A stretch of 64,000 nucleotides of DNA from positions 2,108,001 through 2,172,000 of the forward strand of contig NZ_OY782759.1 in assembly GCF_963678195.1 (NCBI RefSeq). Direction: 5' to 3'. The position numbers and the translations under genes were made by a program. The notes beneath the pieces are model-generated. The model worked only from the letters and a program-made list of their open reading frames with translations, searched no databases and was not told where the DNA came from. This stretch comes from an uncultured Hyphomonas sp. Its GTDB lineage: Bacteria; Pseudomonadota; Alphaproteobacteria; Caulobacterales; Hyphomonadaceae. This document shows, one piece after another, positions 22,649-42,886 of the stretch (its first letter is position 1; every line of letters begins with the position of its first letter).

Positions 22649-22678
22649 TTCATAGTGCCTCCAACTCAAGGAGCCCCC

Positions 22679-23611: not shown

Positions 23612-23628
23612 TCACAAGGACCGCCCCC

Positions 23629-24258
23629 ATGTTCAAGCCCCTGCTCATTTCCGCCCTTCTCCTGACGGGCGCGCATGCCGCTTTGGCAGACACCGCCACG
23701 ACATATGATTTTACCGGCTTCAATGAGCTGGACATTGCCGCTGGCGTTGAGGTCAATTTCACGACTGCGCCCGACTATAGCATCGTCGCTGACTTTCGAC
23801 GGGGCGGTCCGGACGAACTGAAAATCAGGCAAGAGGGTCAGCGCCTTTACATCTCCCGCAAGATGTTGTCTGGCAGTGGCGATCATCTCCGTGTCACCCT
23901 GACCATCAGCGCCCCGGAACTCAACGAAATTGAAGCCAGCTCAGGCTCGTCACTCCGCGCGGAGGGGCTGACGGCCGAGAACTTCGAACTCAGGGTATCC
24001 AGCGGCGCCACAGCTGACTTGTCCGGCACTTGTGGCACCCTGAAGCTGAAGGTCAGCTCGGGCGGCAACGCCGAAGCGAAAAGCATGGAATGCCTGAATG
24101 TCTCGGCCACTGCGAGCAGTGGTGGCGCCGCGAAGGTATTTGCGTCGCAATCGGCTTCGAGCAAGACGTCAAGCGGTGGCAGCGTCGACATCTGGGGCAA
24201 TCCGCCTGACCGGTCAGCAAATCGCTCTATGAGTGGCGGAAGCACCGACTTCCACTAG
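23629..24258 (+). CDS. Secreted GIN-domain (DUF2807) protein, shorter paralogue
   Basis: A 209-residue exported protein with signal peptide MFKPLLISALLLTGAHAALA and the same fold as its upstream neighbour: an N-terminal beta region (FNELDIAAGVEVNFTTAP) and S-S-G-containing repeats (EASSGSSLRAEG, RVSSGATADLSG, KVSSGGNAEAKS, TASSGGAAKVFA, KTSSGGSVDIWG). The spacing of 17 bases and shared architecture indicate a tandem duplication and co-transcription. The 3' end overlaps the convergent PPK2 gene by 4 bases. The role is unknown. Confidence 0.8.
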   Translation: MFKPLLISALLLTGAHAALADTATTYDFTGFNELDIAAGVEVNFTTAPDYSIVADFRRGGPDELKIRQEGQRLYISRKMLSGSGDHLRVTLTISAPELNEIEASSGSSLRAEGLTAENFELRVSSGATADLSGTCGTLKLKVSSGGNAEAKSMECLNVSATASSGGAAKVFASQSASSKTSSGGSVDIWGNPPDRSANRSMSGGSTDFH

Positions 24259-26752: not shown

Positions 26753-27282
26753 GCGCCTCTTCTGACTACCTGAACGAGCATTCCGGAAGTCCGGCGGCTT
26801 AGGAAAGCAAGACAGGCGATTGACTTGTGACTTGCAGCTACAGCCTATGCCGCCTCCCTGGCAATCCGGCGGACAGGCAAGCCGTCCTGAGAAGGTCGGT
26901 ATTGCGGATCACAGGCGCGCGGCCCGGGGAAGCTTTGGGGCAATCACGCATGAATCGGATTGCCCCCTCCCTACGCTGGCAGCGTGTTCAGACTGGCAGG
27001 GAATCACTCACCCCAGCCAAAAGGACATGCTTAATCTTCTCCAATTGCTCGCAAATCGGGCTGAGCGTTCACTTGCCAAATGAAAAACTTTGCAGGGAGC
27101 GAAACTTGCCGGTATGTCGGAATAGTCGAAAACATTACAGATTCCGAAAAAAGGCGCTCAGGAAGATCCGGCCTTTAATCTGTGAAATACCGGTTTTCGG
27201 TCGCGGGCGTATGCCGTTCGTATAGTTTTAAATAGCAACTGCGTAGAATTGCGTAGTGAGATGGCAAGAAGTGTCTTGAGTG
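26753..27282. other. 530-base intergenic region before the Pfa locus
   Basis: No convincing gene is present. Open frames here have no family features. The last 60 bases hold a direct repeat GCGTAG at 27241-27246 and 27251-27256 (10-base period, one helical turn) and a TATAGT at 27221-27226 that could be a -10 element. A 16-codon mini-ORF (ATG 27261 to TGA 27308) overlaps the pfaD start. This region presumably carries the promoter of the Pfa operon. Confidence 0.5.
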
Positions 27283-28824
27283 ATGAACGTGTGCACCACG
27301 ATCATTGAAAACCCGCGCCTCCCGGTCAGCCTGGTGCTGTCCGAGAATGAGGTGAGAGTCGGCGTTGCAAAACAGAGCGTTTCTCCGGAAGCGACGGTTT
27401 TACCCCCGATTTATCCGGAATGGCTCGGTGACCGGGCTTTCTCAGCCACCCATGGCGCTCGTTTCAATTATGTCGTTGGTGAGATGGCGCGCGGCATCAC
27501 GACTCCATTTATGGTTGTCGAGGCAGTTCGAGCTGGCTGCGTCGGCTTCTATGGGAGCGCGGGGCTGCCGCTCGAAGAGATCGAACGCGGAATCCGTGAG
27601 ATCAAAGCCGGGCTTTCGGAACATCAGATCAGCTGGGGCGCCAACCTGATCCATACGCCCCAACAACCCGGGTACGAGGCGAGCGTTGTCGACCTGTTCC
27701 TGCGCGAAGGGGTCCGCAGGGTATCTGCTTCCGCCTATATGCGCCTTTCCCCGGAAATTGTGCGCTACACTGCGCTGGGGCTCGAGCGCGATGCACAAGG
27801 CAAGATCTGCCGATCCAATCATGTCTTCGCCAAGGTTTCACGCGCGGAAGTCGCCGAACAGTTTCTGGCGCCGGCGCCGGAGAAGATTCTGAAAGACCTC
27901 GTCAATTCCGGAGCCATCACCAAAGCGCAGGCGGAATTGGCCGCTCTCGTCCCCGTTGCAGCCGAGATCACCGCTGAAGCCGACAGCGGTGGGCACACCG
28001 ACCGGCGATCAGCCGCCCCGCTCTTTTCTTCCATTTGCGCCGCCCGCGACCGTGTGGCCGCACAGACAGGTATCGATCCTGATGCTGTCAGGATCGGACT
28101 GGCCGGAGGAATTGCCACCCCACACGCCGTTGCTGCCGCTTTCGCAATGGGGGCCGCATACGTCCTGACCGGATCGATCAACCAGGCCGCCGTTGAATCC
28201 GGTCTTTCTCTGCCAGGCCGACAAATGCTGGCGAAAGCCGGACCGGCGGACGTTGCCATGGCGCCTGCCGCCGACATGTTCGAGCAAGGCATTGAAGTGC
28301 AAGTTCTGAAACGCGGCACGCTCTTCGCAATGCGCGGAAAGAAGTTCCATCAGCTCTACAGATCGGGCGCTTCATTCGAATCGCTTGAGGCAAAAGACCA
28401 GGCATGGATCGAAGATGTACTCGGCGAGCCATTTGATGCTGCATGGGCTGAAACACGCGAATATATCAGACGGGTTAATCCGAAAGAGGCCGACAAGGCT
28501 GAAAATGACGGCAACAAACGCCTGGCTCTGGTCGCACGCCGCTACCTGTTCTCTGGAGCTCAGCTGGCCCGCGAAGGTGACCCAGCACGGGTGACTGATT
28601 ATCAGATCTGGTGCGGTCCGGCCCAGGGCGCCTTCAATGAGTGGGTCGCAGGTTCGTTCCTGGAAGATATTGCCAATCGCACGGTTCAGCAGATTGCCTG
28701 GAACCTGATGGAAGGCGCTACGCGGATCACGCGTGCGTCCCAGTTGAGAGCGCTGGGCGCGGCGGTTCCACCAACTGCCTTCAATTACGCCCCGCAACAG
28801 TTTTTAGAAACGGAACCTGTGTAA
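27283..28824 (+). CDS. pfaD: PfaD-type enoyl reductase of a Pfa (PUFA/secondary lipid) synthase
   Basis: A 513-residue FMN-dependent TIM-barrel protein of the nitronate monooxygenase/PfaD family, the trans-acting enoyl reductase of Pfa synthases. Supporting segments are GEMARGITTPFMVVEAVRAG, ISWGANLIHTPQQPGYE, IGLAGGIATPHAVAAAFAMG (phosphate-binding region), YVLTGSINQAAVESGLS and the C-terminal WCGPAQGAFNEW. ATG 27283 was chosen; a GTG directly before it is also possible. The stop and the pfaA start overlap as TAATG, so translation is probably coupled. pfaD comes first here, whereas in gammaproteobacterial clusters it is usually last. Confidence 0.9.
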   Translation: MNVCTTIIENPRLPVSLVLSENEVRVGVAKQSVSPEATVLPPIYPEWLGDRAFSATHGARFNYVVGEMARGITTPFMVVEAVRAGCVGFYGSAGLPLEEIERGIREIKAGLSEHQISWGANLIHTPQQPGYEASVVDLFLREGVRRVSASAYMRLSPEIVRYTALGLERDAQGKICRSNHVFAKVSRAEVAEQFLAPAPEKILKDLVNSGAITKAQAELAALVPVAAEITAEADSGGHTDRRSAAPLFSSICAARDRVAAQTGIDPDAVRIGLAGGIATPHAVAAAFAMGAAYVLTGSINQAAVESGLSLPGRQMLAKAGPADVAMAPAADMFEQGIEVQVLKRGTLFAMRGKKFHQLYRSGASFESLEAKDQAWIEDVLGEPFDAAWAETREYIRRVNPKEADKAENDGNKRLALVARRYLFSGAQLAREGDPARVTDYQIWCGPAQGAFNEWVAGSFLEDIANRTVQQIAWNLMEGATRITRASQLRALGAAVPPTAFNYAPQQFLETEPV

Positions 28825-31800
28825 TGGCCAAACCGAGTGCCGCTCCGATTGCAATCGTCGGCCTGGGGGCCGTCTTCCCCGGCCGGGGCGACGTAACGGG
28901 TTTCTGGCGGGACCTGTTTGAAGGCAGCGACCTCATCACGGATGTTCCGCCGACGCACTGGTTGGTCGACGACTATTACGATGAAGACCCCAAGACAAAG
29001 GATCGCACATATGGCCGCCGAGGCGGCTTCATCGATCCTCTGGCATTCGATCCGCTGTATTTTGGAATTCCCCCAAAAGCCATGGAGGGAACCGACACCG
29101 CCCAACTACTTGCCCTGATCGCGGCCCAGATGACGCTCGAAGATATTGAGCGGGATTCCGGCGGCATGATCGACAAGTCACGGACAAGTATTGTCCTGGG
29201 TGTTGCTTCGGCCACAGAGATGACGGCTCACATGGCCGGCCGGCTGCAAAGGCCCGCTTGGGTGAACGCTATGCGGCAAGCCGGTCTGGCCGAGAGCCAG
29301 GTTCAGGACATTGCCGCCCGAATTTCAGATCACTATGTCGACTGGCAGGAAGCAACATTTCCCGGCCTGCTTGGCAATGTGATTGCCGGGCGGATTGCGA
29401 ACCGGTTTGACCTGACAGGCAGCAACTATGTCACCGACGCAGCCTGCGCCTCAAGCCTGTCTGCGCTTCAGATTGCCTTGCACGAACTCCGGTCCGGAGA
29501 CAGTGACACAGTCCTGACCGGCGGCGTCGATGCACTGAATGACATCCTGATGTACATGTGTTTCTCGAAAACACCTGCCCTGTCGACCTCAGGAGACTGC
29601 CGCCCGTTTTCGACGCGCGCCGACGGCACAATGCTTGGCGAAGGGATAGGTATGCTGGCCCTGCGCAGGCTGGACGATGCCGAGCGCGACGGGAACCATA
29701 TTTACGCGCTGATCAAGGGGCTCGGAGGCGCGTCCGATGGCAAAGGAACAGCGATTTACAGCCCTGTTCCCCATGGACAGGCACGCGCACTGAAACGCGC
29801 TTATGATCAGGCCGGGTACAATCCCTCCACAGTCGATCTGGTTGAAGCACACGGCACCGGGACGAAGGCTGGCGACAAAGCGGAAATCGAAGGCCTGCAC
29901 CTTGTGTTCGGCGAATATGCAGCCGACGAGCCCTGGTGTGCCGTCGGCTCCGTCAAGGCACAGATCGGCCACACCAAGGCGGCCGCAGGTTCTGCCAGTC
30001 TGATCAAGGTAACTCATGCGCTCAGCCGCAAAGTCCTGCCTCCGACAATAAAAGTCGAAGAGCCCGCCGAAGCGATCAAAACCAGTCCTGTCTTTTATCT
30101 CAACACCGAAGCGCGCCCCTGGATTTCACCGAGGAAACGTCCGCGGCGCGCATCCGTCAGTTCATTCGGTTTTGGCGGCAGCAATTTTCATGTCACGCTG
30201 GAAGAGTACACCGGACCGAATGCTGTGAAGCCTTGGCGTTCATTGGCATCCGAACTGTTCCTCTTCTCCGCAGATTCACCAGAGACGCTTGCAGCAAACA
30301 TAGAAAGCTCGTCGTCGGTCCCGACAGAAAGTGAATTCGCCTACAGGGCGTCGCAATCGCAAGATGCATTTGACTGCAGGGCGCCTGCCCGCGCTGCAAT
30401 TGTCGCGTGCAACCCGGCGGAGCTTTCCGAAAAAGCTTCCGCGATTGTGGATACGATCAGGCGTGGCGAGATCGGTAAGCGCCCCCTCAAGATGGGGTGC
30501 CATGTCTCTCTTAATCCGCCGACTGACGGTAAAGTTGCCTTCATGTTTTCGGGGCAAGGGAGCCAGTATGTCGGGATGGGCTCTGACCTTGCAATGGGCT
30601 TCCCAGCCGCCCGCTCCGTCTGGGACCAGGCTGCAACTCACAAACGCGCAGGAGATTTGAAGCTGCATATGCTGGCCTTTCCGCCCGCAGCTTTTGATCA
30701 GGTTGAACATGGTGACCAGACAGATCGCCTGAAAGCCATGGAGCACGCGCAGCCCGCAATTGCTGCTGTCGCCTTGGCTCAACTGTCCTTGCTTGAGCAG
30801 GCTGGCATCACAGCCGACATGACAGCCGGACATAGTTTCGGCGAGATCATGGCTCTCCACTATGGAGGCACGTTCAACCTGACCAGCGCGCTGACTGCGG
30901 CTGTCGAACGCGGCGCCCTGATGGCCGAAGCAGCCAGTTCCTCAGAGGGCTCCATGATGGCTGTCCGGGCCGGCGCCGAGGACATCGGAGGCCTGTTGCA
31001 GCGCTTCAGTCCCGATCTCGTGCTTGCAAACGATAACGGCCCCAGTCAGATTGTTCTTTCCGGTCCATCGGACATCATCCGTGAAGCGATCGAGGCCTGC
31101 GCACAAGAAGGTCTCAAAGCCCGCGCACTGCCTGTTGCGACGGCTTTCCATTCGAAGATAGTCGCATCGGCAGTCAAACCGTTTGAAGCGGCCCTCACAA
31201 AACTCCGTCCACGCAAGCCAGGTTTGCCTGTATACGCAAACGCAACGGCGAAACCCTACACATGTCCCGCCGCTCAAATGCCGATGGAAATCGCAGGCCA
31301 GCTGGAATCTCCGGTCCGGTTCCGTGAACTGGTTGAGCAGATGTATCACGACGGCGCCAGAACCTTCATCGAAGTCGGGCCAGGGTCTGTCGTTTCGGGG
31401 CTGGTGGACGACGTTCTCGGCTCAAGACCGCATGCTGCCTATGCACTCGACAACAAACGCGTAAACGGTGTGACCCAGTTTTTGTCCACTCTTGGGGCAC
31501 TTTCGGTGTCAGGTATGGCGATCAATTTCGCCGGCTTGTTCGATGACCTGCCTGCCGAGCCTCCAAGACCGGCGCCCCCGAAACATGCCGTCATGATTTC
31601 AGGTGCAAACTACGGCAAGCCTTACCCGCCCCCAAAAGGTGCCGCAGGCCGCGCGCCGCCAAATCCGGAACATTCCAGTTCGCCAACTGAAACCAAACCG
31701 GTCGCGCAACGTCTCCGAACTGCTCAGCCTGAACCCAAATCCTCACCGTCTTTATCTGCCTCAAGCCCCCAGGAACCAGCCATGCCGGATTCATCTTACT

Positions 31801-32759
31801 CCTCGTTCCCGTCCCTTCCTCCTTATGAGCCGTCAGGGTCTGCAGGTGAAACTCCGGCGGAACGGGTCATGATGGAAGTCTCGCGCCGCCACGCTGATTT
31901 CCTGAAGATTGCCTCATCCGCACACGCCGCTTACCTGAACACGGTCACGCAGGTCATGAGTGGTACAGGCGCGGTACAGAGCGAACCGGTCAAAGCACTG
32001 CCTGAGCCTCCCCCCAGCCCTGCACCGGCACCTCGTCAGGTGGAACCTGTAGCCGCATCCGCCGCGCCGACCCCGCATCCTGTTACGACCCAACCTGCTC
32101 CGCCTGCTGTTGCCCCCGCTTCTACGCCTGTATCGAAGCAGGCAGCGTTCTCCCCACCAATTGGAGACGCAGCGCCCCCTCCACCGGCAAAACCAGCGAG
32201 AACTGAGCAGGTCGATGCTGTCGCTCTGGTGCGGGCCATCATCGCGGACAAGACCGGCTACCCGGAAGACATGCTTGACGTAGATATGGATCTGGAAGGC
32301 GAACTTGGCGTCGACTCCATCAAACAGGTGGAGATCCTTTCCACGCTGCGCGAGGAACTTCCTGACCTGCCTGAGATTGATCCGGAGCGCCTCGTTGAAT
32401 TGCGGACCATTTCCGCAATTGCCGAAATGGTATCTGGAGCCGCAGGCGCATCTGCGCCCCCACCCGCAGCCAAACCCACCCCTCAGCAGGCACCTGAGCC
32501 CACCACACCATCGCCTGCCTCGGGAAACGGCAGCATAACTACTGACATTGTCAGGGATCTGATTGCCGACAAGACGGGATACCCCAGCGATATGCTGGAA
32601 GACGATATGGATCTTGAAGGCGAGCTTGGCGTCGACTCAATTAAACAAGTAGAGATTCTTTCCGCACTGCGCGATCAATACCCTGATTTACCGGAAGTAG
32701 ACCCAGAGGTTCTGGTGGAGCTCCGCACGATCAGAAAGATCGCTGATTTTTTTGCATAA
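28824..32759 (+). CDS. pfaA: PfaA-type multidomain synthase KS-AT-ACP-ACP
   Basis: Zero-frame product of 1311 residues, starting MAKPSAAPIAIVG. The N-terminal ketosynthase (about 1-470) has active Cys208 in DAACASS and His in EAHGTGTKAGD. The acyltransferase (about 560-900) has MFSGQGSQYVGMG and Ser671 in GHSFGE. A Pro/Ala-rich linker follows, then two near-identical acyl carrier domains with phosphopantetheine sites Ser1165 and Ser1272 (both GVDSIKQVEIL). PfaA proteins normally continue into a KR; here the frame stops right after ACP2 at a T7 tract, and KR coding continues in the -1 frame. Only two ACPs is low for PUFA synthases. The start overlaps the pfaD stop. Confidence 0.9.
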   Translation: MAKPSAAPIAIVGLGAVFPGRGDVTGFWRDLFEGSDLITDVPPTHWLVDDYYDEDPKTKDRTYGRRGGFIDPLAFDPLYFGIPPKAMEGTDTAQLLALIAAQMTLEDIERDSGGMIDKSRTSIVLGVASATEMTAHMAGRLQRPAWVNAMRQAGLAESQVQDIAARISDHYVDWQEATFPGLLGNVIAGRIANRFDLTGSNYVTDAACASSLSALQIALHELRSGDSDTVLTGGVDALNDILMYMCFSKTPALSTSGDCRPFSTRADGTMLGEGIGMLALRRLDDAERDGNHIYALIKGLGGASDGKGTAIYSPVPHGQARALKRAYDQAGYNPSTVDLVEAHGTGTKAGDKAEIEGLHLVFGEYAADEPWCAVGSVKAQIGHTKAAAGSASLIKVTHALSRKVLPPTIKVEEPAEAIKTSPVFYLNTEARPWISPRKRPRRASVSSFGFGGSNFHVTLEEYTGPNAVKPWRSLASELFLFSADSPETLAANIESSSSVPTESEFAYRASQSQDAFDCRAPARAAIVACNPAELSEKASAIVDTIRRGEIGKRPLKMGCHVSLNPPTDGKVAFMFSGQGSQYVGMGSDLAMGFPAARSVWDQAATHKRAGDLKLHMLAFPPAAFDQVEHGDQTDRLKAMEHAQPAIAAVALAQLSLLEQAGITADMTAGHSFGEIMALHYGGTFNLTSALTAAVERGALMAEAASSSEGSMMAVRAGAEDIGGLLQRFSPDLVLANDNGPSQIVLSGPSDIIREAIEACAQEGLKARALPVATAFHSKIVASAVKPFEAALTKLRPRKPGLPVYANATAKPYTCPAAQMPMEIAGQLESPVRFRELVEQMYHDGARTFIEVGPGSVVSGLVDDVLGSRPHAAYALDNKRVNGVTQFLSTLGALSVSGMAINFAGLFDDLPAEPPRPAPPKHAVMISGANYGKPYPPPKGAAGRAPPNPEHSSSPTETKPVAQRLRTAQPEPKSSPSLSASSPQEPAMPDSSYSSFPSLPPYEPSGSAGETPAERVMMEVSRRHADFLKIASSAHAAYLNTVTQVMSGTGAVQSEPVKALPEPPPSPAPAPRQVEPVAASAAPTPHPVTTQPAPPAVAPASTPVSKQAAFSPPIGDAAPPPPAKPARTEQVDAVALVRAIIADKTGYPEDMLDVDMDLEGELGVDSIKQVEILSTLREELPDLPEIDPERLVELRTISAIAEMVSGAAGASAPPPAAKPTPQQAPEPTTPSPASGNGSITTDIVRDLIADKTGYPSDMLEDDMDLEGELGVDSIKQVEILSALRDQYPDLPEVDPEVLVELRTIRKIADFFA

Positions 32760-32791
32760 GGGGCGGAGCGCGCGACACAGCGATCCGTCCC
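32747..32791 (+). promoter_or_regulatory. Candidate programmed -1 frameshift signal at the end of pfaA
   Basis: The pfaA frame ends GAT TTT TTT GCA TAA. T TTT TTT (32747-32753) is a slippery heptamer in exact X XXY YYZ register with the zero frame. Six bases later GGGGCGGA (32760-32767) can pair with TCCGTCCC (32784-32791), an 8-bp stem with one G-U pair and a 16-base loop. The spacer holds the UAA. Heptamer, 5-9 base spacer and downstream stem is the known layout of -1 recoding sites. A homopolymer sequencing or replication error (7 T instead of 8) gives the same picture. Confidence 0.55.
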
Positions 32792-34207
32792 TCTGGGACA
32801 ATCGGAGAGTTTAAACCGTACGGAAGCGCCGTACGCGTACTTGATTCTGTTCTGGTCGCGCCATTCGGTACGTCAGCACCGAGATCAAACCTCGGTCCGG
32901 TCTGTATTACGAATGCTGCGCCGGAATATGCCGAAGCACTCCGAGAAGAAATTCAAGCTTCAGGAGGCACCGCAATTATTGTTGATGTACCTGAAGGCAG
33001 CGGCACGTTTGTTCTGACCGAGGGCCTATCAGCACAACCGCCAGCAGAACGGCATTATTTTTCTCTACAAGCCATGCTGGCTGCGAAATCTGGCTCCAAA
33101 ACTGTCCTGTTGAATTTCGCTTCCTCTCCCTCACGAACGGAAATCGGGGGCACAGCCGGACTCTGTCGCACCATAAGGCTGGAGCACCCAGGGACTGAGA
33201 CCTACTCCATATCCATTGCAGACGACACGAACCCTGGTTCCCTGGCGTCCAAAGTCATCCAGGCCATCTCCCTGTCAGACGGTGACTACTCGCTTCGGCA
33301 AGACGGGATATATCTGGATATGCCGGGCGAAGACCTTGCCCCGCCCGAAGTTTCCGAACGACAGCCTGATCGCCAATCCGTCTGGCTTGTCTCTGGTGGC
33401 GCCCGGGGCGTTACGGCGGACTGCACGATCGAACTCGCCAGGCGTACAGGTGGCACATTTGTTCTGCTCGGACGGTCAGACGTTACGCCCTGGCCTGAAT
33501 GGCTTCCGTTCGAAAGAAATCTAAAAGCCCTCCGCGGCGTGCTTGCACGAAACGCGAACCGCCCCGCCATGCCCCGCAAGCCGATGGAGATAGATCATTA
33601 CGCCCGCAGACTTCTGGCAGGTCTGGAAATCACCGACACCATTGCGTCCATCGAACAATCCGGTGCCAAAGCGCGCTACATTCAAGTGGATATTGGAAAT
33701 GCAGACCAGCTCCGCGCCACTCTTCAAAACGTCCAACATGAACTGGGCAGCATAACCGGCCTTGTTCATGGCGCCGGTGTTCTGGCGGATGGAATGGCTG
33801 AACAGCTACGTCTGGAAGACTTCCAACGAGTCTTTGGCCCAAAAGTATTCGGACTGGAGAACATTCTGGCGTCTCTGGATGTGAATTCATTGTCGCATAT
33901 CGCTCTGTTTTCATCCGCATCGGCTGTATTTGGAAACGATGGGCAAGCAAATTATGCGGCGGCCAATGAGTGGCTCAATAATGTGTCACTTCAGCTGGCA
34001 GACGAACTTCCCACTACTCAAGTGAAAGCCTTTTGCTGGGGACCATGGCAAGGTGGCATGGTCGATGAAGCACTGGCCCGTATGTTTACCGAACGCGGGA
34101 TCAGTCTCATCAGCAAATCCGAAGGCGCGAGAATATTTGCCGATCAGTTGCTTCAGTCTCCACATGACCATATCCGCTTTGTCGTCGGCGACGATTGGGG
34201 TGGATGA
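32753..34207 (+). CDS. Ketoreductase segment in the -1 frame of pfaA (PfaA C-terminal KR)
   Basis: 484 codons open from just before the pfaA stop to TGA 34207. The last ~300 residues are a polyketide-type ketoreductase: NADPH motif SGGARGVTA, LLGRSD, LVHGAGVLADG, and catalytic Ser/Tyr in FSSASAVFGNDGQANYAAAN. The preceding ~180 residues look like the structural half-domain that precedes KR in PfaA. The first ATG is at 33074, and no ATG, GTG or TTG occurs in the ~107 codons before it, so normal initiation cannot produce the full domain. Read through the slip, PfaA would be about 1794 residues. It ends overlapping the next start (ATGATGA). Confidence 0.8.
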   Translation, partial: CIRGGARDTAIRPSGTIGEFKPYGSAVRVLDSVLVAPFGTSAPRSNLGPVCITNAAPEYAEALREEIQASGGTAIIVDVPEGSGTFVLTEGLSAQPPAERHYFSLQAMLAAKSGSKTVLLNFASSPSRTEIGGTAGLCRTIRLEHPGTETYSISIADDTNPGSLASKVIQAISLSDGDYSLRQDGIYLDMPGEDLAPPEVSERQPDRQSVWLVSGGARGVTADCTIELARRTGGTFVLLGRSDVTPWPEWLPFERNLKALRGVLARNANRPAMPRKPMEIDHYARRLLAGLEITDTIASIEQSGAKARYIQVDIGNADQLRATLQNVQHELGSITGLVHGAGVLADGMAEQLRLEDFQRVFGPKVFGLENILASLDVNSLSHIALFSSASAVFGNDGQANYAAANEWLNNVSLQLADELPTTQVKAFCWGPWQGGMVDEALARMFTERGISLISKSEGARIFADQLLQSPHDHIRFVVGDDWGG

Positions 34208-37200
34208 TGAAGGCATTCGAACCTGTCGCGATCGTTGGACAGGGGTGTGTTCTGCCTGGGGCCAATACACCAGGTGAACTGACCCGGCTGGTTATGGAAA
34301 AAAGGACCGTCTACGGCACGGTTCCGCCTGAAGAGTTAGGGCTTTACCGAAGCGCAGCCCAGGGACGCACTTTTGTATCCGGACGCATCAAAGGGTTCGA
34401 ACAGGTCTTCGACCGTGACCGGCTCAAACTCAAATCGCTGACCCCAGATGAACTGGACCCTGTTTGCAGCTGGCCGTTACACGCTGCGCTCGACGCCTGG
34501 GAAGACGCTGGCCGTCCTAAAGTTCGCCCTTCAGCAATGGGTATATTCGTCGCGAACCTGTCTTACCCATCGGCAAACCATGTGAAGTTTGCCTCTCAGC
34601 TATGGCAAGATCAGGAAACTCCGCCGGCGCATTCCGTTTTGAATTCCGCGCTGCCTAGCCGCCTGATCGCAGAATCGCTTCGCTCAACCGGCCCCTGTTT
34701 TTCACTGGACGCGGCCTGCGCATCGTCACTGTACGCCATCGACATTGCCTGCAGAAAACTGAACGCGCGGCAGATCGACTGCGCCGTGATTGCAGGCGTG
34801 AACGCGGCAGACAACCTGATCCTCCATATTGGCTTTGAGGCGCTGAATGCCCTCAGCCCCACAGGCCGGTCGCGTCCTTTCGTCAAAGGCGCCGATGGAC
34901 TCATTCCGTCTGAAGGGGCAGCAGCACTTGTGTTGAAGCGCCTGACGGATATTGAGCCCGGAGAAAACGTCTACGGCGTACTTCGCGGCAGCGGCCTCTC
35001 AAATGACGGACGCCGCAAAGGCTTGCTTGCGCCTGCTGCAGAAGGTCAGATCGGCGCAATGCAGCAAGGCCTTCTGGGCGGCGGGATAGATCCGCATACG
35101 ATCCAGTATGTTGAGTGCCACGCGACAGGCACCGCTGTCGGCGATAGCGTGGAGGTCTCGTCTGTCAGCTCCGTCTACAAAGATGTCGAGCATCTGTCTT
35201 TGGGGTCTCTGAAGGCAAATACCGGTCATCTTATCACGGTTGCAGGCCTTGCCAGCGTACTGAAACTTACCGGCGCGATGGCAGAAGAGCGTATACCGCC
35301 AACGCCCTTGGACGGTCAGTTGCTTGACCCGTTACAGGATAGTGGACTGGACGTTCCGACGACTCCCTCAAACTGGGAAACCTCCGGAGTGCCGCGCCGA
35401 GCTGCCATCAGCAATTTCGGATTTGGTGGAAACAATGCCCACCTTATTCTGGAGGAATATCGCCCGGCGACGCGCAAAGGCCGTAACCGCGCGATCAAGA
35501 CATCTCCCGCACCGGATATTGTCATCTGCGCCGCATCGCTGATGGCAGGCAGTGACTGTACAACAGACAGCGTTCTCCGGCGCCTGATGAACCACCCTGT
35601 CAAACGGCCCGGAAAACTTGAGCAGATCGGCGCCAATGCGGTGGATGCCCGTTCGCCGCCCAAGGACCTGGCACAGGCAGAACCTCAGCAACTCGCCATC
35701 CTCTCCACGGTCAGTGAAGCCCTGAGCCGCGTCGGCTCCTTCGAGGCTGAAGAGACAGGCGTGTTTGCCGGCATGGCTTGCGCTGCAGACTCTGCGCGTT
35801 GGGCATTGAGGGAACGCGCCTCAGCTAATCCGGCGCAATCTGCAGACGATATCGCGCCCAAGCTCGATGCCGCCGCAGTCCTTGGCGCGATGGCCAATAT
35901 GACGGCGAACAGAATTACTTTCGCACAAGACATCCGCGGGATGGGTTTCTCGGTTTCAGCTGGTCCCGCCAGTGGGCTGGCAGCGCTCGATCTGGCAATC
36001 GACGCGTTGATTTCTGGCCGTCTGTCGACCGCGGTCGTGGCAGCGGCAGATTTTGCCACTGAGCCGGTCCGTGCCCGTGCGCTGTCGGAACTATGTAGCC
36101 TGGATCATCCCGGCGACGCATCCGCGGCTCTGGTTCTGAAACGGCGCGAAGATGCTGAAGCAGCCGGCGACCCGATCCTTGCCAGCATAAAACCGATTGA
36201 TTGGAAGAACAGGAAGGCCCGATTGACTCCAAGCCTGTTTTCTACGGTCTACGGTCAGGCACCTGATGCAGAACCTCTGGCGGAGGTCGCGCTGGAGTGT
36301 CTGCTGAATGCTCACAGCCATATGCAGACGGACGCTGGCGCCATACCGGCACTCTCTTTCAAGAGAAAGAAGCGCCATGTTTCAGTTGCGGCCGGACTGG
36401 CAAATGCAGGTTCGTCGGTTTCCTTTGAGCTTGAACCTCCTCAGGTCCTACCGGATCCCCTCCGGCCAACGCCATTTATGTTCCATGCCGCTGCCGGGAG
36501 CCGGAGGAAACTTGCAGAAGCACTGAATGCCGGCCGGGAAGGTGGTCGAGGCGGCTACCAGATCGCACTCATTGCAGCGAGTGAGGATGAACTGGACAAA
36601 CTTCGCGCTTCAGCCGCTGCGCCCTTAGCGAGAGACCAGCGCCCTTCCGGTGAAGGCATCTATTTCGGAGAAGGCCAGCCAGACGGTGAGCTGGCATTCA
36701 TGTTTACCGGCTCCGCCGCCGTCTACCCGCGCATGGCTAGACGGCTGTTGATGGCATTTCCTGAGGTTCGGAAAGCGCTCTCCAAATTGTCTCGGGCTGA
36801 AGAGATTGCCGCCCTGCTGTCTCGTTCGAACCTGACCGAATTCGAACAGTTATGCGCTGGCACGCTGGTCAGTCAGGCACACGCGATCCTGTGGCTTGAT
36901 CTGCTCAAAGTGAAACCCGATGCCGCCATCGGCCTGTCTTTGGGTGAGTCGAACGCATTGTTTTCGTTTGGCTACTGGAAAGACCCCGGCGCTCTACTGG
37001 ATGAAATCTCCAAAGCCGCGATGTATGAGCGGCATATCGGCGGCGAGTTCGAAACCGCAAGACAGGCTTGGGGTCCCAATGTCCCGTCAGACTGGACCAA
37101 CTGGCGGCTTCAGGCGCCGGTCGATCAGGTCAAACAAGCGCTCGAACGGCACCCAGGCGTCGAGATCACCATCATCTACACAGATGGCGATTGCATGGTC

Positions 37201-40200
37201 GGTGGCCCCGCAGACGCCTGCAAACAGCTCTGCGATGAATTCGGCAAACAGGCTGGCGTGAAGATGAACCAGCACCTGATCGTACATGCGAAGGCCATGC
37301 GGCCATTTGCGGATACGTGGCGGCGTCTGCATACGCGGGAGGTGCATCGGGGCTCTGGCGTGCGGTTGTACGCCAATGCCATCCACGCGGCTTACGAACC
37401 TGAGACAGCGGTCGTCGCGGACATGCTCACACGGCAGGCGGTGGATACGGTCGACTTCCCGAAGACAGTCCGCCAGGCCTGGAAGGACGGCGTGCGCAGC
37501 TTCCTGGAGCTCGGCCCGCGGGACACGTTGACGTCCAGCCTCTCCAAGACACTGAAAGATAAGCCTTTTAAGGCTATCGCCACCGACAGGATCGAAGCAT
37601 CCGATCTGGGCCAGATCGCCCATGCGGCTGCCTTCCTTTACGCCGATGGCCGAGACATAGACCTCGAGCCCCTGCTCCAAACCCTTGCTGCGGCAAGGAA
37701 AAACGAGACCGTTCCGCGCCGCAAATGGAACGTCACCAGACCGGTACCTTACCCTATGCCCAAGATCGCCGACGCCCCACCAGAACCTGTCCGGAACGTT
37801 CTTCCGCATGCGCCCAGGCTGCGCATGCCGGACTATGCCATGACTATAGCGGACCAGGTCATGATCCCGGCCGGAGCAGATAATGCCCCCAAGCCGGGCA
37901 AATGTCTCGAACCGCCCCGCAAAGTGACCAGTGGAACGACACCGCTCCAACCGCGTACGCCGACCGGCCCGGCACGTGATCGGTGCTCGATTGAGGCATC
38001 CACCCGTGGCAAGATGTCGGAATTCTTCGGGCCTGATTTTTCCGGCCAGGATAGTTTCGAGCGGCAGGTCCGGCTTCCTGCTCCGCCTCTCCTGCTTGTC
38101 GACCGGATCACCGGAATCGATGCGGCGCCCCGGGAAGATGCTGCCGGAATCATCTGGACCGAAACGGACCTCTCCAACCATAGCGACTTTGTCCATGATG
38201 GGCGCGTCCGCCCGGGGCCGCTGATCGAATGCGGCCAGGCGGACCTGACCCTGATCGGCTGGATGGGCGCTGACCTGCAAAACAGGGATAAACGCGTCTA
38301 CCGACTGCTCGGTTGTGAAATCACATTCCATGAAGGCGGACTGCCCCTCGATGAGGACACGCTGAAATTCCAGATTGAGATTACCGGCCACGCCGAGCTT
38401 GCCGGGGTCCGGATGTTCTTCTTCCAGTACGACTGCCGCACAGAGGATCGCCTCGCTTTTTCCGTGCGCAACGGGCAGGCCGGCTTTTTCACGGACGACG
38501 AACTCAAGAACAGCAAGGGCGTGATCTGGGACGCGACCAAAGACGCGCCTCCGACAGCCACGCCCACCGACTTCACCCCTCAGCGTGTGACGCAGAAACG
38601 CAAGTTCCCGGCCGCAGACGTCAACGCCTTCCGGAAGGGCGATGCCTTTGCGTGCTTCGGGGCGGGCTTCGAGCTTTGCGCGGCCCATTCCAATCCCCCT
38701 CATATTCCTGACGGAAAACTTGCCCTGTTCGACGAGGTGATCGCCTTCGATCCACAGGGCGGGCCCTGGAAACGGGGTTACCTCCGCGCGCGGGCAGCAA
38801 CGCCTGCAAACAGCTGGTTCTATGACGGCCACTTCCACAAAGACCCCTGCATGCCCGGCACGCTCATGGCGGAAGCCGCGGTCCAGACTCTGGAATTCTT
38901 TGCGGCAGCCGTGGGCCTGACGGTTGAACGGGATGGATATGTGTTTGAACCCATTCCGGAACATACGGCGAAGTTCGTTTGCCGTGGCCAGGTTATTCCG
39001 GATAAGGATCATGATGTAACCTATGAAGTCTTCATCGATGAAATCATCGATGGGGAAACACCGGAAATCTACGCCTCCCTTCTGGCACGCTGCGATGGGC
39101 ACAAGGTCTTCCACTGCCCGCGTTTCGGCATCCGCCTGCGCCGCAACTGGCCGGCTGCGCGCATTGACGAAAAACCGCTTCTAATCGGCCCCGAACGGGA
39201 AAGCCGCGGCGACCAGGCCGCCTTGCTGGACTGCGCGAATGGCGCGCCGTCCGCCGCCTTCGGCGAGATGTATCGGCCCTATGACGATCAGGGGAACGTG
39301 CCACGCCTGCCTCAGCCGCCTTACCACTTCATCTCGCGGGTGACCTCCGTCACCACGCGCCCGGCCGAAGAAACGCTCGGCGCGACGATGACAGCGGAAT
39401 ACGATATTCCGGCCGATGCCTGGTATTTCGACGACAATCTCAATGGGACAATGCCGTTTGCCGTTCTTTGTGAGATTGCCCTTCAGCCATGCGGCTGGCT
39501 GGCCAGCCATTCCGGCTTTGCCCTTGTTGGCACCCTGCGGTTCCGCAACCTCGAAGGCGATGGCTTCCTCCACATGGAAGTCGGCCGCAATGACGATATG
39601 CTGAAGGTCCGCAGTACGCTGACAAATATCGCCAAGGTCGGTCCGATGACCCTTGTGTCGTTTGACGTCGAGGTCATCACAGGTGATGGCCGTCAGGTGC
39701 TGGATCTGAAAACGCAATTCGGCTTCTTCCCGCCTGCATCGCTTGTGCGGCAGGCCGGGCTGCCGGCCAAACCTCACTTCACATCCGCATTCGATCTTCG
39801 CCCTGCGCCAGTCCAGATCGATATGCAGGAGCCGCTTGCTTCCGGCCGGATGAAAATGATCGATGAGATCGACTTCTGCAACCCGAACGGCGGCGAAGCG
39901 GGCCTTGGCCTGATCCGCGCGCAACAGCATGTCGATCCGTATGCCTGGTATTTCAAGGCGCACTTTTATCAGGACCCTGTCCAGCCCGGCTCGCTGGGGC
40001 TCGATGCGCTGGTCCAGGCTCTGACGCAACTTGTGTGGAAGAAGGGCCTGCAGGAAGGTATGACCCACCCCCACCTCACAACCCTGGCGCCCAATGCGCC
40101 CATAAAGTGGAGCTACCGCGGCCAGGTCACGCCGGAGCGCAAGACTGTCACAAGCGTGATGGAAATCCTGAGCATTGATGACCGGGAAGACGATATTCTG

Positions 40201-40287
40201 ATCACCGCCCGGGGCAGCCTCTGGCGGGATGGGCTTCGCGTCTATGAAGTCGGCCCGATGAGCGTTTCGTTGAAGGACCTTGGCTAG
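34204..40287 (+). CDS. PfaC-like synthase KS-CLF-AT-DH-DH
   Basis: A 2027-residue multidomain protein. KS (about 1-420) has Cys172 in DAACASS, ECHATGTAVGD and NFGFGGNNAH. The chain-length-factor-like KS (about 440-740) has VSAGPASG where the active Cys would be. The AT domain (about 830-1150) has FMFTGSAAVYPRMA and Ser912 in GLSLGES. Two FabA-like double-hotdog dehydratases follow: DH1 has a degenerate first half (HDGRVRPGPLIEC) and active HFHKDPCMPG; DH2 has degenerate DDNLNGTMPF and active HFYQDPVQPG. In Shewanella-type loci the AT is a separate PfaB, so here PfaB function seems fused in. The KR stop overlaps its start. Confidence 0.9.
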   Translation: MMKAFEPVAIVGQGCVLPGANTPGELTRLVMEKRTVYGTVPPEELGLYRSAAQGRTFVSGRIKGFEQVFDRDRLKLKSLTPDELDPVCSWPLHAALDAWEDAGRPKVRPSAMGIFVANLSYPSANHVKFASQLWQDQETPPAHSVLNSALPSRLIAESLRSTGPCFSLDAACASSLYAIDIACRKLNARQIDCAVIAGVNAADNLILHIGFEALNALSPTGRSRPFVKGADGLIPSEGAAALVLKRLTDIEPGENVYGVLRGSGLSNDGRRKGLLAPAAEGQIGAMQQGLLGGGIDPHTIQYVECHATGTAVGDSVEVSSVSSVYKDVEHLSLGSLKANTGHLITVAGLASVLKLTGAMAEERIPPTPLDGQLLDPLQDSGLDVPTTPSNWETSGVPRRAAISNFGFGGNNAHLILEEYRPATRKGRNRAIKTSPAPDIVICAASLMAGSDCTTDSVLRRLMNHPVKRPGKLEQIGANAVDARSPPKDLAQAEPQQLAILSTVSEALSRVGSFEAEETGVFAGMACAADSARWALRERASANPAQSADDIAPKLDAAAVLGAMANMTANRITFAQDIRGMGFSVSAGPASGLAALDLAIDALISGRLSTAVVAAADFATEPVRARALSELCSLDHPGDASAALVLKRREDAEAAGDPILASIKPIDWKNRKARLTPSLFSTVYGQAPDAEPLAEVALECLLNAHSHMQTDAGAIPALSFKRKKRHVSVAAGLANAGSSVSFELEPPQVLPDPLRPTPFMFHAAAGSRRKLAEALNAGREGGRGGYQIALIAASEDELDKLRASAAAPLARDQRPSGEGIYFGEGQPDGELAFMFTGSAAVYPRMARRLLMAFPEVRKALSKLSRAEEIAALLSRSNLTEFEQLCAGTLVSQAHAILWLDLLKVKPDAAIGLSLGESNALFSFGYWKDPGALLDEISKAAMYERHIGGEFETARQAWGPNVPSDWTNWRLQAPVDQVKQALERHPGVEITIIYTDGDCMVGGPADACKQLCDEFGKQAGVKMNQHLIVHAKAMRPFADTWRRLHTREVHRGSGVRLYANAIHAAYEPETAVVADMLTRQAVDTVDFPKTVRQAWKDGVRSFLELGPRDTLTSSLSKTLKDKPFKAIATDRIEASDLGQIAHAAAFLYADGRDIDLEPLLQTLAAARKNETVPRRKWNVTRPVPYPMPKIADAPPEPVRNVLPHAPRLRMPDYAMTIADQVMIPAGADNAPKPGKCLEPPRKVTSGTTPLQPRTPTGPARDRCSIEASTRGKMSEFFGPDFSGQDSFERQVRLPAPPLLLVDRITGIDAAPREDAAGIIWTETDLSNHSDFVHDGRVRPGPLIECGQADLTLIGWMGADLQNRDKRVYRLLGCEITFHEGGLPLDEDTLKFQIEITGHAELAGVRMFFFQYDCRTEDRLAFSVRNGQAGFFTDDELKNSKGVIWDATKDAPPTATPTDFTPQRVTQKRKFPAADVNAFRKGDAFACFGAGFELCAAHSNPPHIPDGKLALFDEVIAFDPQGGPWKRGYLRARAATPANSWFYDGHFHKDPCMPGTLMAEAAVQTLEFFAAAVGLTVERDGYVFEPIPEHTAKFVCRGQVIPDKDHDVTYEVFIDEIIDGETPEIYASLLARCDGHKVFHCPRFGIRLRRNWPAARIDEKPLLIGPERESRGDQAALLDCANGAPSAAFGEMYRPYDDQGNVPRLPQPPYHFISRVTSVTTRPAEETLGATMTAEYDIPADAWYFDDNLNGTMPFAVLCEIALQPCGWLASHSGFALVGTLRFRNLEGDGFLHMEVGRNDDMLKVRSTLTNIAKVGPMTLVSFDVEVITGDGRQVLDLKTQFGFFPPASLVRQAGLPAKPHFTSAFDLRPAPVQIDMQEPLASGRMKMIDEIDFCNPNGGEAGLGLIRAQQHVDPYAWYFKAHFYQDPVQPGSLGLDALVQALTQLVWKKGLQEGMTHPHLTTLAPNAPIKWSYRGQVTPERKTVTSVMEILSIDDREDDILITARGSLWRDGLRVYEVGPMSVSLKDLG

Positions 40288-40958
40288 ACTGACATGGCGC
40301 GGCTGAGGACGAGCCCCCCGGTCTCAAAAATCTCGACCCGCAGAGTCAGGCCATCGTGCTCCAGGCTGAACTGGTCCTGCTGACCTGAGATGACCTCCAG
40401 AGGCAGGTGTATCCTTGGGGCGCCTCCCTTCAGCCCCGTTCCAGCTGCCTTCAGGATCGCCTCCTTGGCGGCCCAGCACCTGAAGAAGCCGGCAAGGCCG
40501 CCCGCCCCTTCGACAGCGCGACGGATGTCTATGGCCTCGCCTTCAGATGAAAGCATGGGGAGCATCGCCTGCCAGCCAATGGGCCGGACCGCTTCGACAT
40601 CCACACCCACCTTTCCCGACCGCACCAGGGCCAGTGCATTGGCCGCCTCGCTATCAGAAAAGCTGACCGAGGCGTCAGGAAAATCGGGCAGAAAAGGACG
40701 CCCCTCCGGGGCATGGGCAATTGCAATGTCCGCGGCAGGTTCCGCCAGCAAATGAGACAGGAGTTCCCGCCGCCGGGAAAGGCTACGGCCAAGCTGGTCG
40801 CGCTTTTCATCCGACACCAGGCGCGAAATGCGCACTTTGTCGTCGCCGGAGAGCACAGCCTCGTTCACGGGGGCCGAGGCAGAATGCCAGAACCACGCCC
40901 CCTCCGCCCCCGGCTCAGCCGGGCTGCACTTCGGGAAAGGTCTGAAATCCTGCAACAT
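40284..40958 (-). CDS. 4'-phosphopantetheinyl transferase (Sfp type)
   Basis: A 224-residue transferase that attaches the phosphopantetheine arm of CoA to ACP serines. The two family motifs are VGVDVEAV (magnesium-binding Asp and Glu) and WAAKEAILKAAGTGLKGG (FxxKEA-type). The start is ATG 40958; an upstream in-frame TTG at 41003 is possible. It is convergent with the pfaC-like gene with a 4-base overlap, and is most likely the dedicated activator (PfaE role) of the two PfaA ACPs. It is the last core gene before the island. Confidence 0.9.
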   Translation of the reverse strand: MLQDFRPFPKCSPAEPGAEGAWFWHSASAPVNEAVLSGDDKVRISRLVSDEKRDQLGRSLSRRRELLSHLLAEPAADIAIAHAPEGRPFLPDFPDASVSFSDSEAANALALVRSGKVGVDVEAVRPIGWQAMLPMLSSEGEAIDIRRAVEGAGGLAGFFRCWAAKEAILKAAGTGLKGGAPRIHLPLEVISGQQDQFSLEHDGLTLRVEIFETGGLVLSRAMSV

Positions 40959-41029
40959 CGCCTGAAGCGTTGTAGATCGGCGCCTGCCTGGGCGCCAGAA
41001 CAAGCTTCAAGAGAAAACTGCCGTGAAAG

Positions 41030-41305: not shown

Positions 41306-42886
41306 ATGGACCGCGCCTATGCAAAATACCATCGACTTATAGAAGCGGCGCAATCTGCCAATGAAGGCAACTCATCTCTGATTACTGCCACAACCAAGCC
41401 CCAAAGAAGAATACGCCAGCCTACCGCAGATGACCTCGGCCGCGCAGTGGACCTCTTCCACGACCGCTACATCGCACAACACACCAACATTCACGACCTG
41501 AAGGACAACAGGGAATTCGGCTCGCTAGGCGATAAACTGATCGCCGGAAAACTAGAAGATGACTGGCTGCGCATCGAGAATGAGCTTGAAACCGCCCCCT
41601 TGTTTCCGGATCGCACTTTGGAGACGGCTGGAGAGATCCTTGAGGAAAACAACTGGGATATGGACGTTGATGGCGAGCTGTTTGAACTGTTCTGTGACAG
41701 ACTGAGATCCGCAGAACTCGATGCGATTAAGAGAATTCTCGAACAGTCTGCGAACCAGACCCACATATCTTCGAGCGAACTCCGAAAGCGACAAGCTGAG
41801 CATCGAACTCAGAATTATCGAATTTCTGACGCGGTGACCGATTACATAAAAGCCGAACCCGAAAAGCGAGAAATGCACGAGAAGATGCGAACCGCATGTG
41901 AACTGTGGGAAAACCTGACCTCGGTCACAAAGGTCGCGGACATTGACCAGGGGCTCGTGGTCGATTTTACCGATATGATGAGAGAGATGCCAGCGAACGC
42001 CAAGCAGCGTTTCCCCAGCTTGTCTCCCGCTGAAGCTATCCGCGCGAACAAGGATCGTCAAAAGCCATATCCGACGGTTTCGCCGCGCACAATAAAAACG
42101 AATTATGTCGGCCCACTGAGCACTTGTCTTTCAATGGCTGTAGGACGAAAGCGTGCCAGGAATAATCCGTTTTCCGGCGTCAAAGTGTTCGGCTCATCCA
42201 AGAAATCACAAGACAGGAGGCCCTTCAAAATCAGGGAGCTAAAAGTGATTTTCAGCCAACCGGTGTTCCAGGGAAGCCATTCGATAAGACGGAGGAACTC
42301 ACCCGGCCCAAATGTTTATCGGGATCATTTCTATTGGCCTGCAATTCTCTCCCTCTTTTCCGGTATGCGTGCTGACGAAATCGCAAACCTCAAGGTGACG
42401 GACATTAAATCGACGGAAATTGAAGGCGAGCAAAAGCCATATTTTGACATGCCTGGCACGAAAACTGAGAATGCCCTTCGAGAACTGCCCGTCCACCCCA
42501 CCCTGATCGACCTCGGCTTTATGGATTACGTGGAAGCCCAGAAATCCGAAGGGCACGACAGACTGTTTCCGAACTGGGCTAAACCAAATGGTAAAAAGCG
42601 ATCTGAAGGACGCTGCATTCGCAATTTCAACGAGAAGGTTGCAGCTGCCGCAATCGAGTCTGACCGACGACCAACTTTCCATTGCTTCCGGCATACATTG
42701 TTGAGCGAGCTTGAAAGCAATGACTTTTCGCCCACGCTCATGGCAAAGTTAGCTGGCCACTCCATCAAGGAGACCACCGCTGGCAAGCACTATGTTGTTC
42801 CGGAATTGGAAAAATATTACGAACGCTTTTGTTCTGCAGTGAAATATGACGGGTTGAACATCGTCAAAATCCTCAAGCAGGACTGA
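41306..42886 (+). CDS. Site-specific tyrosine recombinase of the island
   Basis: A 526-residue phage-type integrase from the first ATG. The C-terminal catalytic domain shows Arg in SGMRADEIANLK, HxxR in FHCFRHTLLSE, His in LAGHSIKETT and the nucleophile Tyr in GKHYVVPE. The N-terminal ~300 residues are the arm- and core-binding part. In-frame coding sense continues upstream of 41306: codons from about 41171 read IRRGLTYHFKKRIPREL, typical of integrase N termini, but the open frame (from 41087) has no ATG, GTG or TTG, so the real start is non-standard or lost. It sits next to attL in the usual orientation. Confidence 0.9.
   Translation: MDRAYAKYHRLIEAAQSANEGNSSLITATTKPQRRIRQPTADDLGRAVDLFHDRYIAQHTNIHDLKDNREFGSLGDKLIAGKLEDDWLRIENELETAPLFPDRTLETAGEILEENNWDMDVDGELFELFCDRLRSAELDAIKRILEQSANQTHISSSELRKRQAEHRTQNYRISDAVTDYIKAEPEKREMHEKMRTACELWENLTSVTKVADIDQGLVVDFTDMMREMPANAKQRFPSLSPAEAIRANKDRQKPYPTVSPRTIKTNYVGPLSTCLSMAVGRKRARNNPFSGVKVFGSSKKSQDRRPFKIRELKVIFSQPVFQGSHSIRRRNSPGPNVYRDHFYWPAILSLFSGMRADEIANLKVTDIKSTEIEGEQKPYFDMPGTKTENALRELPVHPTLIDLGFMDYVEAQKSEGHDRLFPNWAKPNGKKRSEGRCIRNFNEKVAAAAIESDRRPTFHCFRHTLLSELESNDFSPTLMAKLAGHSIKETTAGKHYVVPELEKYYERFCSAVKYDGLNIVKILKQD

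Follow-up and report, generated by a model that had tools for sequence, protein, structure and literature searches.

We analysed a window of 64,000 nucleotides (nt), the whole stretch from position 2,108,001 to 2,172,000 of the one-contig genome (3,672,159 bases) of an uncultured Hyphomonas sp. of the family Hyphomonadaceae. The window carries pfaA, a gene of a Pfa-type lipid synthase, whose reading frame ends between its acyl carrier protein (ACP) domains and a ketoreductase (KR) that lies in the -1 frame. We propose, with a probability of about 0.93, that this ACP-KR junction is a programmed -1 ribosomal frameshift, from which two products are predicted: one with a ketosynthase (KS), an acyltransferase (AT) and two ACPs, KS-AT-ACP2, and a longer one, KS-AT-ACP2-KR. 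The same interpretation had been put forward earlier from the letters of the window alone (the sequence-only reading); a conserved heptamer, stop and stem, together with selection on the -1-frame protein, now support it. The elements of the junction are as follows.

32744–32746, + strand: -1-frame stop TGA, adjoining the heptamer on its 5' side (sequence)
32747–32753, + strand: slippery heptamer T TTT TTT in zero-frame register (sequence)
32754–32759, + strand: 6-nt spacer GCA TAA, with the zero-frame stop one codon after the heptamer (sequence)
32760–32791, + strand: candidate stem-loop stimulator (folding, conservation, covariation in the wider family)
32747–34207, + strand: -1 frame, a linker (residues 1–19) followed by a complete KR of the polyketide synthase (PKS) type with structural and catalytic halves (open reading frame, Pfam, model)

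The slippery site and its conservation

The 3' end of pfaA reads GAT TTT TTT GCA TAA, with the TAA stop at 32757–32759; the T7 run in zero-frame register at 32747–32753, followed by GCATAA, is just as the sequence-only reading had it. Its claim that the -1 frame stays open to 34207 was also borne out: the frame covers 32747–34207 (486 aa), and the lack of an early start that it reported holds as well, the first ATG, GTG or TTG being codon 110 (ATG 33074). The zero frame and the -1 frame overlap by only 13 nt. Since the TGA at 32744–32746 abuts the heptamer, a frame shift is possible within this overlap only, and it is here that the zero-frame X XXY YYZ heptamer expected of a -1 frameshift site is found.

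The heptamer was compared with chance expectation in the 46 frames, some of which are not genes, that run from stop to stop over 250 codons or more on either strand of the window. Among these, pfaA alone has an X XXY YYZ heptamer 3 nt before its own stop, and an in-register T TTT TTN occurs once in 21,265 codons, at the pfaA site. A T7 run by itself is no rarity in the window, with 4 matches vs 8.7 expected. A search of 32500–33100 against Rfam gave no match up to E=5.

To follow the junction in relatives, the KR was searched in 105 genomes of the family at E<=1e-25, and 57 had the gene. Two loci (L017 and L045; L and G numbers are our handles for loci and genomes) were left out because their contigs start within the KR, which left 55 junctions from species-level assemblies of three genera. 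The alignment over T7, stop and stem that the sequence-only reading had advised showed the run (as T7 or T6C), the stop and the stem to be conserved. In 55/55 junctions the heptamer T TTT TT[T/C] stands in zero-frame register one codon before the pfaA stop, as T TTT TTT in 38 and T TTT TTC in 17, and the stop itself is TGA in 21, TAG in 19 and TAA in 15. The KR is in the -1 frame in 54 of the 55 (in two of these, L046 and L055, the contig ends within the KR). The codon preceding the two Phe codons is GAT in 53, AAT in one and GGT in one; the residue ahead of FF may vary, and its final T stays. Elsewhere in the same loci Phe is TTT in 193/639 cases (30%) and Asp is GAT in 687/1691 (41%), so the T run is not due to codon preference. 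KR identity to the window falls to about 35% across the family; hence these loci are not recent copies. We regard the conservation in 55/55 junctions as the decisive evidence that the site is real.

The same comparison deals with the possibility that the T run was misread in sequencing or has recently acquired a frameshift mutation. A one-base homopolymer change in a single genome would look identical, and a candidate from another lineage, L087 (see below), is best explained so. For the window the explanation is refuted by the relatives, which break at the same base in 55/55 assemblies, 17 of them at T6C; we give it a negligible probability. Eight T with one continuous frame had been named as a refuting case by the sequence-only reading; none of the 55 shows either eight T or a continuous frame.

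Hyphomonas-type pfaA was also seen on two contigs titled Candidatus Sulfopaludibacter and Acidobacteria (L067 and L068); these titles are probably wrong.

The stem-loop and the protein in the -1 frame

The 8-bp stem 6 bases after the heptamer that the sequence-only reading had suggested was recovered at 32760–32767/32784–32791, with one G-U pair, and an inner stem of 3 bp was found in addition (32769–32771/32780–32782). A 60-nt fold gave -24.2 kcal/mol (z -2.64), and 6 of 200 shuffles were at least equally stable. The distance of 6 nt lies within the 5–9 nt between heptamer and 3' structure given for -1 sites in PMC5009743 (this and the other papers named below are cited from the parts of their text that were available). 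When the 5' arm was fixed after the stop, the best 7-nt 3' arm of the 55 loci lay at +28 in 39, at +25 in 11 and elsewhere in 5. All seven lower-stem pairs were formed in 39 loci and six in 16; at control positions of the same loci seven pairs were formed in 2.5% and six in 23%.

Covariation was examined across the wider family in 43 junctions, which give 37 distinct rows; the window's 11-member subclade and L029 were left out. In the 37 distinct junctions, 10 of the 14 stem pairs had changed on both sides, and the cells with a two-sided change numbered 60, compared with 22.6 in shuffles. The covariation score was reached by 0 of 500 shuffles, and slid partners scored lower. A covariance model trained on the same 43 junctions recovered 11/11 junctions of the window's subclade (E 3.8e-9 to 8.8e-5, the window site itself at 8.8e-5) and also the L029 site (E 2.6e-6), all absent from its training. 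In the window genome the window site was its sole match up to E=0.1, and across 101 relatives every match off these junctions stood at E >0.02.

Several observations weigh against the proposed frameshift. The six pairs of the 16 loci are a level that 23% of other positions reach, and 13 of these 16 belong to the 14 loci of one genus, g4 (probably Henriciella); the junction of L037 has a different fold. In the wider set 79% of cells are paired, with the upper-stem columns 28–31 often unpaired, and further pair types are not above shuffles (182 of 500 reach the count). In the window's subclade 98% of cells are paired with zero two-sided changes, i.e. the stem there is conserved rather than covarying. 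In L029 (Hyphomonas sp. L-53-1-40, junction 1461–1505) a 32-nt deletion relative to L015 removes the 3' side of the stem and part of the linker; the -1 frame closes after 15 codons, and the KR is now in the zero frame, behind the pfaA stop. This is either a natural loss of the frameshift, with a full-length product that is dispensable, or a draft error. To these points may be added that in E. coli U_UUU_UUU shifts less readily than A_AAA_AAG does (PMC5009743), and that 52/54 loci have an ATG, GTG or TTG before codon 100 of the -1 frame, which is taken up below.

Transcriptional slippage was considered as another route to the fused protein. RNA polymerase would add or drop a U at the T run, and normal translation of the mixed mRNA pool would then yield the fusion. 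Sites of this kind have a long A or T run, commonly of 8–9 or more. The T7 of the window is a homopolymer, and SAR324 and cyanobacteria have A9–A11 runs of the polymerase-slippage kind at this junction; the family, however, has T6 or T7 only in 55/55 junctions, with T6 then C in 17 and none above T7, and C CCA AAA is found at the same junction without a long run in L129 and L201. A weak hairpin 5' of the window's T run (1 found, 0.7 expected) keeps 4 or 5 of its 5 pairs in 48/55 loci; it is complete in only 24/55, and its bases also encode the conserved ACP end. The conserved stem, on the other hand, lies 3' of the site and is untranscribed while the polymerase is on the T run, and ribosomal slippage needs the zero-frame register as well as the stop one codon further on. 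We therefore consider transcriptional slippage improbable in this family.

The -1 frame was next examined as a protein. The ratio of nonsynonymous to synonymous substitution rates (dN/dS) was obtained for 18 chosen close pairs, which are not independent of one another, over ungapped -1-frame codons 13–82, upstream of the window's first start. Seventeen pairs gave 0.10–0.40 and the remaining one, with 3 differences, 0.76; the -1 frame was free of stops in 18/18 pairs. The other two frames gave at least 0.73 where the ratio was defined, and one or both had stops in 17/18 pairs. This pattern indicates selection on the -1 frame at the protein level, beginning just behind the stem; conservation of the -1-frame protein after the site, as expected of a -1 frameshift, is thus borne out over codons 13–82 by dN/dS and the lack of stops in these chosen pairs.

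The complete PfaA-type KR claimed by the sequence-only reading was supported by a Pfam KR match and by a predicted structure. The model, built with 10 sequences, had a mean predicted local distance difference test score of 87; it was confident from about residue 20, residues 1–19 scoring <50, and showed the strands and helices of the KR structural half from residue 29. Its best Foldseek matches are the PKS ketoreductases 5ktk, 4j1q and 2fr0 (template modelling score 0.63–0.68 by query length). The model suggests that the RNA stem sits in the part that encodes a disordered linker, which would leave room for both constraints.

These results bear on the possibility of two separate genes, with the KR translated from its own start: ATG 33074 in the window, a GTG that some relatives have at codon 29 or 30, or a codon other than AUG at the stop. 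Such an arrangement has a precedent in type D Pfa synthases, where pfaA is split into KS-AT-ACP5 and KR genes (PMC3098273, PMC4882568). The break there likewise falls between the ACP array and the KR of PfaA, which suggests that the KR can work apart; unlike the present case it is described as two genes (the comparison is by description), and the word 'frameshift' is absent from both main texts. GTG is present at codon 29 or 30 in 22/54 loci, in addition to the early starts of 52/54 noted above. Nevertheless, no start position is common to the 54 loci, the commonest being shared by 15, so that the separate KR gene with its own start, another refuting case of the sequence-only reading, did not appear. 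The window has no start before codon 110, and ATG 33074 falls in the predicted KR helix 99–112, within the structural half. Codons 13–82 are under purifying selection in the -1 frame, and no sigma-70-type promoter-like site was found in 32400–33300. We consider two separate genes highly unlikely.

Junctions in other lineages

A search of the order at E<=1e-40 matched 59 of 398 genomes. In the five that do not belong to the family, pfaA and the KR share a single frame (open frames 1982–2836), and a search of the class outside the family (E<=1e-45) matched 4 of 385 genomes, all with the KR in frame. With an in-frame KR in these outgroups, the pfaA/KR split of Hyphomonadaceae looks derived.

In a wider scan, several unrelated loci with the KR in the -1 frame were found among the matches listed, of which 80 loci were kept. 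Many of the split genomes outside Hyphomonadaceae are metagenome-assembled genomes (MAGs), and our claim is weaker there. In the order of one of them, the Lambda/SAR324 MAG G411, 22 of 41 genomes matched. Of the 24 loci, two without ACP and one duplicate were dropped; 18 of the remaining 21 (L175–L194) are split to the -1 frame at an A9–A11 run and 3 are fused, and the heptamer stands 3 nt before the stop in 17 of the 18 split genes. The A runs probably mark a slippage site of independent origin at this domain boundary.

For the order to which a Nostoc MAG belongs, matches at E<=1e-100 came from 27 of 195 genomes; 30 of the 38 matches were listed as loci, and 25 of these have an ACP. Among these 25, which stem from the matches listed, 5 are split to -1, 2 to +1 and 18 are in frame. 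The -1 splits (L145, L146, L147, L156, L169) lie after the last ACP of cyanobacterial Pfa/hgl-like genes, at A AAA AAA within A9–A10 runs. The two +1 cases (L159, L162) have an A10 run; they do not fit -1 slippage and were rejected.

Matches in the class that includes a Thermoflexus MAG came from 4 of 199 genomes. Three Chloroflexi-class genomes other than the query are split, at A AAA AAA (2) or C CCA AAA (1) ending 3 nt before the stop, and a MAG titled Actinomycetes (L129) has C CCA AAA GCC TGA at its ACP-KR junction. It may be noted that C CCA AAA GCC TGA or A AAA AAA GCC TGA stands at the junction of L129, L200, L201 and L202. Long A runs outside Hyphomonadaceae may act via polymerase slippage.

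Other candidates were set aside. L087 (Pseudomonadales) has a one-base gap outside its A run, and in the nearest of the 7 other matching genomes of its order (81% KR identity) the gene is fused in frame; an error or a fresh mutation is the better explanation. The Chloroflexi loci L133 and L140/L199, with A AAA AAA, were not retained, since the frame from ACP to site varies with the ACP copy, with a low-complexity stretch or an N run. As side observations, L131 (Phycisphaerae) has A8 at the junction, and L084 (Trichodesmium) has the same split pattern on one short MAG contig.

A joint reading of these cases, to which we give slightly less than even odds, is that ACP-KR slippage is a recurrent, independently evolved device of Pfa synthases in several phyla. 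Its separate origins would be U UUU UUY with a stem (Hyphomonadaceae), A runs (SAR324 and cyanobacteria) and A AAA AAA or C CCA AAA (Chloroflexi class). The device would fix the proportion of PfaA without KR to PfaA with KR in a dimeric megasynthase and, via a stop-start overlap, the amount of pfaBC, thereby balancing the whole assembly line.

The gene cluster, the proposed mechanism and known systems

From its gene content, the cluster at 27280–41003 is a Pfa-type lipid synthase locus, with the following parts besides the -1 frame.

27280–28824, + strand: pfaD-like gene (FabD_helical_ins Pfam match and position)
28824–32759, + strand: pfaA zero frame with KS, AT and two ACP (PP-binding), ending ...IADFFA-stop; the short product
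32541–32756, + strand: second ACP of pfaA, limits approximate and set by eye, with DSIKQVE at 32634–32654
34204–40287, + strand: pfaBC-like gene with KS, a second KS-like stretch, an AT-like stretch and two FabA-like dehydratase domains
40284–41003, - strand: 4'-phosphopantetheinyl transferase of the ACPS family (Pfam)

When the -1 frame is counted, Pfam gives the architecture of PfaA: KS, AT, tandem ACP and a C-terminal KR. The neighbours are those of a pfaA cluster as well, namely pfaD- and pfaBC-like genes and the phosphopantetheinyl transferase (by Pfam; pfaD through FabD_helical_ins and position). The pfaD-like gene, which from its position and from family knowledge we take to encode the enoyl reductase, overlaps the pfaA start with its stop (TAATG), and the AT-like stretch of the pfaBC-like gene scores under the Pfam cut-off. 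The two pfaA ACPs (32226–32432 and about 32541–32756) are near repeats at the DNA level, 81% over 113 nt. Directly 3' of the cluster lies a phage-integrase-family gene (41306–42886), a possible island border, and upstream of the cluster lie two neighbouring DUF2807 genes (putative auto-transporter adhesin, 22655–24258). Comparison with plasmid DNA gave only short distant matches, to 5 records.

The proposed frameshift would proceed as follows. A ribosome on pfaA would reach U UUU UUU with tRNA-Phe in both the P and the A site and meet the stem-loop 6 nt downstream, where a fraction of the ribosomes would slip back by one base. Those that do not slip would stop one codon later and release KS-AT-ACP2, while those that slip would read a short linker, partly encoded by the stem, and continue to KS-AT-ACP2-KR. 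We infer that slippage takes place on the ribosome and that both products are used.

In the window the KR stop and the pfaBC start overlap as ATGA. The pfaBC ATG was found from 13 nt before to 4 nt after the KR stop in 51/52 loci, the window included; L056 lacks one by this criterion. L029 was excluded, and the sequence of two further loci breaks off too soon. With the pfaBC start overlapping the KR stop or lying almost next to it, and with non-slipping ribosomes expected to end 1.45 kb upstream of pfaBC, slippage may also tune the translation of pfaBC and so set its output.

In the literature searched, beyond which most papers in subscription journals lie, no Pfa, PKS or fatty acid synthase gene with programmed frameshifting was found, in agreement with the statement of the sequence-only reading that such regulation is not known for any Pfa synthase. 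A word search of the available text of PMC3711429, PMC5009743, PMC4066793, PMC3098273, PMC13291983 and PMC4882568 gave no Pfa or PKS frameshift; the nearest match, in the part of PMC3711429 covered, was 'Polyketide cyclase' only. As far as searched, the conserved -1 signal is new for the Pfa gene family, and the nearest known kinds are those of dnaX, csoS2 and magnesium chelatase.

E. coli dnaX has an upstream Shine-Dalgarno-like stimulator next to its A AAA AAG site, and -1 sites of insertion sequence (IS) elements join a U-run heptamer with a downstream structure. The pfaA site differs from the former in being U UUU UUY in a lipid megasynthase gene and in having no conserved upstream stimulator, judged by eye only. 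It resembles dnaX tau/gamma in the X XXY YYZ heptamer, the 3' stem-loop and two products with a common N-terminus and a differing C-terminal domain; in some bacteria the longer dnaX product also comes from the shift, with the zero-frame stop directly after the site, as in pfaA (PMC5009743). The chlD gene of magnesium chelatase likewise gives two subunits of one metabolic complex from one gene with a conserved signal (PMC9227772, PMC5009743), whereas its site is A AAA AAR in another enzyme, and the extra part in pfaA is a catalytic domain of an assembly line. Similar to pfaA, csoS2 is a chromosomal gene whose two forms arise by a -1 shift at a site that has a stem-loop and seems to lack a 5' Shine-Dalgarno stimulator; in csoS2 it is the shorter form that the shift yields, unlike the longer one in pfaA (PMC5009743). 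The HIV-type U UUU UUA site shares the U-run heptamer and the downstream structure (PMC5009743); this type and the IS sites belong to viral or mobile genes, while pfaA is a host metabolic gene.

If true, the pfaA junction would be, within the literature searched, the first case in which recoding decides which domains a polyketide- or fatty-acid-type megasynthase contains. Standard gene calling would report such genes as two pieces, a PfaA lacking its KR and a fragment with the KR, and so misread their chemistry, which would extend to SAR324 and some cyanobacteria. The role of a KR-less PfaA subunit would become a testable question, and the engineering of polyunsaturated lipid synthases would gain a natural handle on KR stoichiometry. 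With more than 50 natural variants of a bacterial -1 site, the family would also permit U UUU UUU to be compared with U UUU UUC, and stems of different strength with one another.

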